The position numbers and the translations under genes were made by a program. This document shows, in pieces, positions 31,946 to 33,301 of a DNA stretch of 64,000 nt (position 1 is its first letter; each line of letters starts with the position of its first letter). Below the pieces are notes generated by a model. It ran no database searches and was not told the DNA's origin. It was given only the letters and a program-made list of their open reading frames with translations. The DNA is taken from NCBI GenBank assembly GCA_021775095.1, contig JAJFII010000070.1:1-64000 (forward strand), written 5' to 3'. The DNA is from Rhodospirillales bacterium (GTDB lineage Bacteria > Pseudomonadota > Alphaproteobacteria > Rhodospirillales > Casp-alpha2).

Positions 31946-33301
31946 TTATTTTGAATCGGCCGCTGGAGTCGGCGTCGCAACAGGAGCCGTGTTAGCGACT
32001 GCAGGGTTAGGCGCAGCTTGTTTGGCAGGGGCGGTCGTTATCGTCGCTTTTTTAGGCGCGGACTTTTTGCCAGGAGCCTTTTTCACGGCGGCCTTTTTAG
32101 CCACTGCCTTTTTAGGCGGTGCTTTTTTAAGTGCGGATTTTGCTGGAGCGGTTTTTTTCGCGGCGACTTTTTTTGTCGTGGATTTTGCTGGCGCGACCTT
32201 TTTTGCGGCGACCTTTTTAGGCGTTGCCTTTTTTGCGGTGGCTTTTTTTACCGCAGCTTTCGAAGGCGCGGCCTTTTTTGCGGCAGCTTTCGCAGGCGCG
32301 GCCTTTTTTGCGGCAGCTTTTTTCGGCGCAGCAGCTTTTTTGGCGGCGGCGCTTTGCAATTTGGCGGTCAGGTTTACGAGGCCGCGAACTTCTTTAACCG
32401 ACTTTCTAAACATCGCCTTTTCGGCAGCGTCCAGTTTGACTTCGACGATCCGTTCGACGCCCTTTGCCCCGATGACTACCGGCACACCCACATACATATC
32501 CTTAACGCCATATTCGCCTTTCAGATAGGCGGCGCAGGGAAGCACGCGTTTTTTGTCCTTCAGATAGGATTCTGCCATGGTTATCGCCGCTGCTGCCGGC
32601 GCATAATAGGCGGATCCGGTTTTCAACAGTCCGACAATTTCGCCACCACCCATCCGGGTTCGCATGACGATCTCGTCAATTCGCTTTTGTGTGGTCCATT
32701 TCATGGCGATCAAATCCGGAAGGGGAATACCAGCGACCGTCGAATATCGAATGGAGGGCACCATACTATCGCCATGGCCACCGAGAACAAACGCCGTAAC
32801 ATCTTCGACAGAGACCTTAAACTCGTCGGCAAGGAAATAACGGAAGCGTGCTGAGTCGAGGACTCCGGCCATACCGACAACCTTGTTGTAGGGCAGACCC
32901 GAGGCATCACGGAGGACTTTGACCATGGCGTCCAGGGGATTGGTAATGCAAATAACAAAGGCTTTTGGGGCATTTTTTTTAATGCCAGCACCAACCTGTT
33001 GCATGACCGATGTATTGATTCCAATCAGGTCATCACGGCTCATTCCCGGCTTGCGGGCGATACCGGCGGTTACAATAATTACATCCGCGCCCCTGATCCC
33101 GGCGTAGGATTTTGTGCCCTGAAGATTGGAATCAAATCCGTCAATGGGGGAGCTTTCTGCAATATCGAGAGCTTTTCCCTGGGGGATTCCGTCGACCACG
33201 TCGAACAATACAACGTCGCCTAGTTCCTTAAGCCCAGCCAAGTGAGCAAGAGTTCCACCGATATTACCGGCGCCAATGAGTGCAATTTTATTACGTGCCA
33301 T
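31946..33301 (-). CDS. mdh: Malate dehydrogenase fused to a histone H1-like Lys/Ala/Pro tail
   Basis: Residues 1-316 are an ordinary LDH-like malate dehydrogenase: NAD-binding [35 protein letters not shown], catalytic HGDSMVPS near residue 176, and a normal end at [15 protein letters not shown]. The frame then continues without interruption for about 135 residues. Residues 321-420 hold 36 Lys, no Asp, Glu or aromatic, in repeated Lys-Lys-Ala-Pro blocks; 421-451 are Ala/Pro/Thr-rich. Such tails resemble histone H1-like proteins and AlgP, which bind DNA or polyanions. The ATG at 33301 gives the family N terminus. The total of 451 residues compares with about 320 for relatives. The role of the tail is unknown. 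Confidence 0.95.
32252..32310 (-). repeat. 30-bp tandem repeat inside the mdh tail
   Basis: Two near-identical adjoining units of about 30 bases (32252-32280 and 32281-32310), differing at few positions, encode ten-residue Lys/Ala/Pro blocks. Shorter related units continue on both sides (32080-32345). The unit keeps the reading frame, suggesting the tail grew by in-frame duplication. Confidence 0.75.

Follow-up and report, generated by a model that had tools for sequence, protein, structure and literature searches.

The malate dehydrogenase (Mdh) encoded in a 64,000-nucleotide stretch of Rhodospirillales DNA (hereafter the window; GenBank assembly GCA_021775095.1, contig JAJFII010000070.1, positions 1 to 64,000) runs on past its catalytic core into a strongly polycationic C-terminal tail, and a basic Mdh end recurs in all genomes of the same family for which that end could be read. 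A second, shorter basic tail is present on the 2-oxoglutarate dehydrogenase E1 protein SucA. Histone H1-like tails on bacterial proteins are already known; we found no report of one on Mdh or SucA among listed titles and abstract starts of open-licence papers. We tentatively favor the interpretation that the Mdh tail is a disordered tether for polyanions, among which nucleic acid would be the likeliest partner.

Results

A polycationic extension on an ordinary malate dehydrogenase

The mdh gene occupies positions 31946–33301 on the minus strand, wherein translation of 31949–33301 yields 451 residues and the stop codon lies at 31946–31948. Its assigned start at 33301 (MARNKIAL) is supported by alignment, as the window Mdh and 29 of 29 Mdh proteins from relatives all have Met at this position. 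The gene is the first in an operon-like run on one strand, mdh-sucC-sucD-sucA-sucB-lpd. Residues 1–316 (32354–33301, minus strand) constitute the catalytic core, which is that of an ordinary LDH-like malate dehydrogenase: it scores above the curated NCBIfam thresholds with PRK06223 (464.1 bits, cut-off 283) and TIGR01763 (416.9 bits, cut-off 351.85) and contains the Pfam domains Ldh_1_N and Ldh_1_C. The core resembles the Mdh proteins of Brucella (3gvh) and Methylobacterium (4ros, 5ujk), with 73–75% identity by structural alignment and profile hits over residues 1–311 and 1–318. However, the crystallized chains of these enzymes comprise 324 and 320 residues and thus carry no long tail.

A preliminary description of this DNA, made from the sequence alone, had the frame continuing for about 135 residues beyond the normal end of the domain near residue 316. 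This proved accurate, as the tail comprises residues 317–451 (31949–32353, minus strand). It is composed of 49 Ala, 38 Lys, 16 Pro, 11 Thr, 8 Val, 6 Ser, 2 Asn, and one each of Leu, Gly, Ile, Gln, and Asp, the last being its only acidic residue; Glu, Arg, and aromatic residues do not occur in it. The count for residues 321–420 (36 Lys, 36 Ala, 10 Pro, 6 Val, 6 Thr, 4 Ser, 1 Leu, and 1 Gly) likewise agrees with the 36 Lys and the lack of acidic or aromatic residues given in that description. The net charge of the tail is +37 versus +8 for the core, and the calculated pI of the whole protein is 10.13. Autocorrelation of Lys along the tail reaches 0.73 at lag 5 and 0.72 at lag 10. Given this five-residue period, the repeat is better described as KK followed by three small residues than as a strict Lys-Lys-Ala-Pro block.

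In an AlphaFold model of Mdh, a helix spans residues 292–324 and the chain beyond it is unstructured at a pLDDT of about 35, with values below 50 across residues 328–451. The tail is therefore predicted to be intrinsically disordered. Note that the model was used for tail disorder only, because the shallow alignment of 30 close rows yielded a mediocre core (mean pLDDT 58.9; Foldseek rmsd about 11). Frames of such composition are rare in the part of the genome sampled. A Lys-rich scan of 367,739 bases (the window and 20 stretches, 6% of the genome) was passed by 6 of 1027 stop-to-stop frames of at least 100 residues, among which Mdh had the highest score (12, with the next frame at 10) and SucA was also included.

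The likeness to H1-like proteins and AlgP that had been suggested for the tail holds for composition but not for membership in the H1-like models. HC2 (PF07382) matches weakly over the tail, with 35.4 bits for the Mdh protein and 35 for the tail alone against a gathering score of 40, and the H1-like DNA-binding protein model NF038053 gives 32.6 bits for Mdh against a cut-off of 80. These scores place Mdh as a protein that resembles the two groups and is not a member of either. The long disordered Lys/Ala/Pro repeat that characterizes AlgP/PhaF-type proteins is found in the Mdh tail, judging from composition, predicted disorder, and period. The C-terminal repeats of Pseudomonas AlgP and PhaF are similarly long, disordered, and high in net charge, for which one study gives +55 (apparently AlgP) and +35 (PhaF) (PMC9239181). 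Mdh differs from these KPAA carriers in being a metabolic enzyme and in its repeat, a KK pair followed by three small residues.

The tail belongs to the Mdh reading frame

A frameshift error near the end of the core had been named as a finding that would speak against the tail. It is excluded by the presence of tails in relatives and by the pattern of substitution in two close relatives (loci L009 and L010) with identical tail protein, wherein six of six nucleotide differences within the tail fall at third positions of Mdh codons and are synonymous. Moreover, the one genome of the same genus with a readable Mdh end (G003) carries a 55-residue tail of like kind. The DNA of the tail contains tandem repeats with periods of 14–75 bases, so the exact length in the assembly could be off, although the existence of the tail is not affected.

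On the plus strand, positions 31896–32528 hold a long open frame antisense to the tail, with Phe/Ala/Leu repeats that look pentapeptide-repeat-like by eye and give no Pfam match. A real gene in this frame, overlapping the end of mdh, would be a rival account of the tail, as would a frameshift or misassembly. One antisense frame over the tail is indeed open in 13 of 13 loci checked. Nevertheless, such openness is to be expected, we reason, from Lys, Ala, and Pro codons; neither of two plus-strand ORFs has a Pfam match at E values up to 1, the closest pair differs only in third positions of Mdh codons, and Mdh tails recur in independent genomes. We rejected the plus-strand gene on these grounds and regard an artefact or other gene of any kind as extremely improbable. 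Lys-rich tails and pentapeptide-repeat genes may mimic one another on opposite strands.

Basic Mdh ends in the family and beyond

To be counted as basic, an Mdh end had to comprise at least 10 residues beyond residue 316 with a net charge of +3 or more. The survey covered 61 genomes (that of the window and 60 relatives), of which 58 gave a match and 54 contributed a counted Mdh end. Left out were G013, G029, and G047 (no match), G002 and G014 (matches other than Mdh), G001 (the start of Mdh only, at a contig edge), G015 (contig ending inside Mdh), and the second Mdh copy of G027. The first loci were ranked by a query that contained the tail, which favors tailed genomes; the remaining Mdh ends were then also read, and all were counted. 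Whole-genome searches with the tail only were insensitive, as one of them failed to list the known Mdh tail of G008.

Within the window's family, the Mdh end could be read in 31 genomes and is basic in all of them (10–135 residues); in 23 it reaches 30 residues or more, with Lys making up 25% or more. G020 and G035 have the shortest ends, 10 residues with net charges of +3 and +4. Among genomes that belong to other families of the order, a basic end is present in 7 of 23, and 4 of 23 pass the threshold of 30 residues and 25% Lys. Tails range from 10 to 162 residues and share no conserved motif except their basic residues. The cut that the preliminary description recommended for related genomes, taken here as about 80 residues with over 25% Lys, is passed by 4 of 54 (G000, G022, G023, and G041). 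For a stop near residue 320 in related strains, which it had set down as contrary evidence, the outcome is mixed: 16 of the 23 genomes from other families of the order lack a basic tail by our cut, and the end is down to 10 residues in two members of the family, yet a basic end is present in all 31 family genomes read.

Among the best 80 of 593 named loci, 10 Mdh proteins carry at least 20 further residues with at least 25% Lys plus Arg, including that of Hwanghaeella grinnelliae, a cultured species, with a tail of 83 residues; two of the 10 were taken as duplicates of genomes in our survey. By contrast, the Mdh proteins listed under Mesorhizobium, Bradyrhizobium, Ruegeria, Leisingera, Sphingomonas, Thalassospira, Terasakiella, and Nisaea stop no more than about ten residues away from position 316. 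A class-wide draw of 190 genomes gave 157 with a match, and 20 of the best-matching Mdh ends were read. Four of these (G156, G076, G087, and G118) have basic tails of 34–94 residues, and the other 16 extend 0–24 residues. A quick tree built from 108 Mdh core sequences requires at least 11 changes of the tail state; 39 of its 105 inner branches are poorly supported. We conclude from this sequence comparison that the tail has probably been gained or lost repeatedly and has become fixed in the window's family.

SucA is the other regularly tailed TCA enzyme among those checked

All genes downstream of mdh in the run lie on the minus strand. By family assignment and sequence, sucC (30707–31903; succinate-CoA ligase beta) and sucD (29834–30706; succinate-CoA ligase alpha) encode proteins with no basic tail, and family assignment together with the reading of C-terminal ends gives the same result for sucB (25330–26691; E2 of the 2-oxoglutarate dehydrogenase complex) and lpd (23888–25300; dihydrolipoyl dehydrogenase). 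The sucA core (26852–29743; 2-oxoglutarate dehydrogenase E1; PRK09404, 1380.8 bits), the start codon of which is provisional, is followed by a basic tail of 37 residues with a net charge of +11 (26741–26851), as read from the end of the protein.

We counted SucA in 40 of 41 stretches, the protein not being found in G007. Wherever SucA could be read in the family (27 of 27 genomes), its tail has a net charge of +5 or more. In all 13 genomes read from other families, the equivalent stretch has a net charge of −1 to +4 and forms no basic tail, and 10 of these 13 contain, by reading, an LPQPF-type peptide there. Five of the 13 pair a tailed Mdh with an untailed SucA, and thus the two tails are separable traits. 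In one branch of genomes (G009, G020, G026, G031, and G035), Mdh tails are short (10–42 residues) and SucA tails are long (51–67 residues). A general trade-off in tail length, to which an initial set of 19 genomes had nominally pointed (rho −0.48, p 0.037), was discarded when 40 genomes gave rho 0.18 (p 0.26); within the family alone rho is −0.19 (n = 27, p 0.34).

Other enzymes of the cycle were examined for similar ends. In 20 stretches, of which 16 come from the family, basic tails were found on 0 of 19 intact SucC, 0 of 20 SucD, 0 of 17 SucB, and 0 of 15 Lpd proteins. (The SucC frame of L127, from G018, matches to residue 331 only and then runs off in the assembly.) For citrate synthase, 30 loci were retrieved and 22 were readable after removal of the misread L138, L153, and L160, two paralogue fragments, and three others; one of the 22 (G005) has a basic end, which is short. 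Fumarase was tailed in 0 of 12 cases (13 of 24 loci read, 12 on the right strand). The search for the isocitrate dehydrogenase family mainly returned 3-isopropylmalate dehydrogenase and related enzymes; the copy in the window is LeuB. Two loci outside the family, L317 and L318, have ends that we take to be those of isocitrate dehydrogenase, and neither carries a basic tail. Among the TCA enzymes checked, regular tails are therefore on Mdh and SucA alone. A general drift of C termini toward Lys was rejected on account of the untailed SucC, SucD, SucB, Lpd, and fumarase proteins, the single short basic end among citrate synthases, and the few Lys-rich frames in the sampled 6% of the genome.

This restriction to two cycle enzymes could mean that their tails meet at a shared acidic partner or in a condensate, or that they channel oxaloacetate, malate, and 2-oxoglutarate electrostatically near the active sites. 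The branch with short Mdh and long SucA tails would fit such an arrangement. Positive charge near oxaloacetate enzymes is also a feature of the known electrostatic channeling between malate dehydrogenase and citrate synthase, which rests on a folded surface; citrate synthase, the user of the Mdh product, is untailed here. Neighboring cycle enzymes do not share the tail as they might in a metabolon, given the counts for citrate synthase and fumarase, and SucA is not consecutive to Mdh in the cycle. Furthermore, the negative relation between tail lengths vanished at 40 genomes, five genomes outside the family combine a tailed Mdh with an untailed SucA, and two like-charged tails would repel each other. 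We consider clustering of TCA enzymes unlikely on balance, even though catalysis changed when Mdh and isocitrate dehydrogenase of B. subtilis were brought together in droplets (PMC11189929). The channeling precedent is itself disputed (PMC11461322).

Charge appears to outlast sequence and length

We counted residues and codons in 30 Mdh tails of at least 30 residues, skipping the first 8 residues of each. Together they contain 671 Lys, 605 Ala, 178 Pro, and 58 Arg but only 3 Glu and 3 Asp. The AGR (Arg) and GAR (Glu) codons are each one transition away from Lys codons, and they occur 22 and 3 times, respectively (binomial p 1.6e-4, a value that ignores relatedness and treats codons as independent, which they are not). 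In most pairs compared, the tail shows more amino acid changes and gaps per codon than the core does. The tail of the closest pair differs by 6 synonymous and 0 nonsynonymous changes, and tail length within one genus is 135 residues in one genome and 55 in another. Because AGR outnumbers GAR and acidic residues are few, yet changes and gaps in the tail are many, these sequence comparisons suggest that charge is kept and exact sequence is not, with a length that appears to turn over fast.

Such turnover is also what might be seen if the tail were mostly neutral, with repeat slippage lengthening a short basic end, an exposed C terminus tolerating the result, and weak selection for solubility or against degradation disfavoring acidic residues. 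The difference in length within a genus, the tandem repeats in the DNA, and the excess of change per codon over the core all accord with this scenario. We nevertheless think it improbable, about to the same degree as enzyme clustering, given that all 31 family genomes read retain a basic end, that Arg codons exceed Glu codons, that the closest pair differs only synonymously in the tail, and that Mdh and SucA are tailed whereas the enzymes encoded between and after them are not.

Similar repeats on other proteins

Lys-rich repeats also stand at the end of TopA in 13 of 15 genomes searched (two short); TopA was unreadable in the other two, for which the reading was on the wrong strand (L326) or ended early (L333). 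Ribosomal protein L21 has an extension with at least 12 Lys at 19 of 21 loci (L248–L268, wherein L256 is from the window's genome); the extension is rich in Lys, Ala, and Pro but also contains scattered acidic residues. Since several TopA tails also terminate in acidic residues, the idiom is not identical to that of the Mdh tail. In the window itself, ribosomal protein L19 (52007–52504, minus strand) has a C-terminal extension that is Lys-rich and partly acidic.

One relative, G008, encodes a stand-alone Lys/Ala/Pro protein of 140 residues (L207), which we take to be AlgP-like; the insensitive tail-only search listed no protein of this type for the genome of the window. A further G008 protein has a KKSAPKK stretch near its start and is presumably HU-type. 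A short protein of G053 (L247), which we assume to be tautomerase-like, has a KKAPAKR-type tail.

Discussion

In the reading that we prefer, tentatively and largely by analogy, a disordered polycation would have been fused onto an otherwise normal malate dehydrogenase. LDH-like malate dehydrogenases are tetramers, and if this Mdh is tetrameric, it would present four tails with about +150 charges. These tails, if disordered in the cell as the model predicts, would bind polyanions multivalently and without sequence specificity. The most likely partner would be nucleic acid, either nucleoid DNA or RNA, so that part of the Mdh pool may be held on the nucleoid or on RNA and part of the 2-oxoglutarate dehydrogenase complex may be held likewise via the SucA tail, with a possible effect on flux.

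The multivalent role is proposed by analogy with Streptomyces TopA, in which lysine repeats at the end hold the enzyme on DNA and give processivity; TopA of Caulobacter and Bordetella is described as having lysine repeats as well (PMC7398561). Both enzymes carry degenerate C-terminal lysine repeats; TopA, however, acts on DNA, and the role of its tail follows from this, whereas Mdh has no nucleic acid substrate. An association of Mdh with the nucleoid, RNA, polyphosphate, or acidic partners, as envisaged in the preliminary description, is something that we still only infer. It gains some weight because similar repeats occur on TopA, on L21, and on the HU-type protein of one relative, and because Mdh and SucA are tailed and their operon neighbors are not. 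Nucleic acid is our first choice because, among polyanions, it is abundant and because most of the proteins bearing such repeats here have it as their partner. The basic end throughout the family, charge kept despite changing length, predicted disorder, the repeated appearance of Mdh tails, the TopA and L21 repeats, and the AlgP-like and HU-type proteins of G008 all favor a nucleic acid tether. Arguing against it are the span of lengths from 10 to 162 residues with nothing conserved save basic residues, the two family members with only 10 residues and net charges of +3 and +4, the mixing of Lys with acidic residues in L21, and the acidic ends of several TopA tails.

Similar polycations also bind polyphosphate, anionic membranes, and acidic proteins. 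The tail might accordingly position Mdh at polyphosphate granules, at the surface of PHA granules, or at the anionic inner membrane, and a Lys/Ala/Pro tail essentially free of acidic residues suits any polyanion. AlgP, with its comparable KPAA tail, localizes to polyphosphate granules and needs its KPAA domain for granule spacing, although KPAA peptides also bind DNA (PMC9239181). We rate a partner of this kind as somewhat less probable still than enzyme clustering or near-neutral drift, and the nucleic acid tether remains our preferred, if provisional, account.

No report of a lysine-rich tail on Mdh or SucA was found among listed titles and the starts of abstracts in the open-licence literature, wherein the H1-like lysine tails that we could find are on nucleic acid or granule proteins. 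The tails are retained on two enzymes of central metabolism across the readable genomes of the family, and further tailed Mdh proteins occur elsewhere in the class. Tails of 0 to 162 residues on much the same enzyme amount to a natural experiment. The most far-reaching proposal is that, in this family, Mdh and 2-oxoglutarate dehydrogenase E1, both encoded in one gene cluster, have been turned by their H1-like tails into polyanion-bound enzymes that form a nucleoid-anchored, RNA-anchored, or condensate TCA hub, possibly a tunable one. We offer this as speculation with little chance of being correct in full, but if it is true, the hub could be tuned by ionic strength, by polyphosphate, or by acylation of tail lysines with the pathway's own acyl-CoA. 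The Mdh and SucA tails thus make a testable case that some bacteria may keep core carbon metabolism physically tethered to a polyanion.
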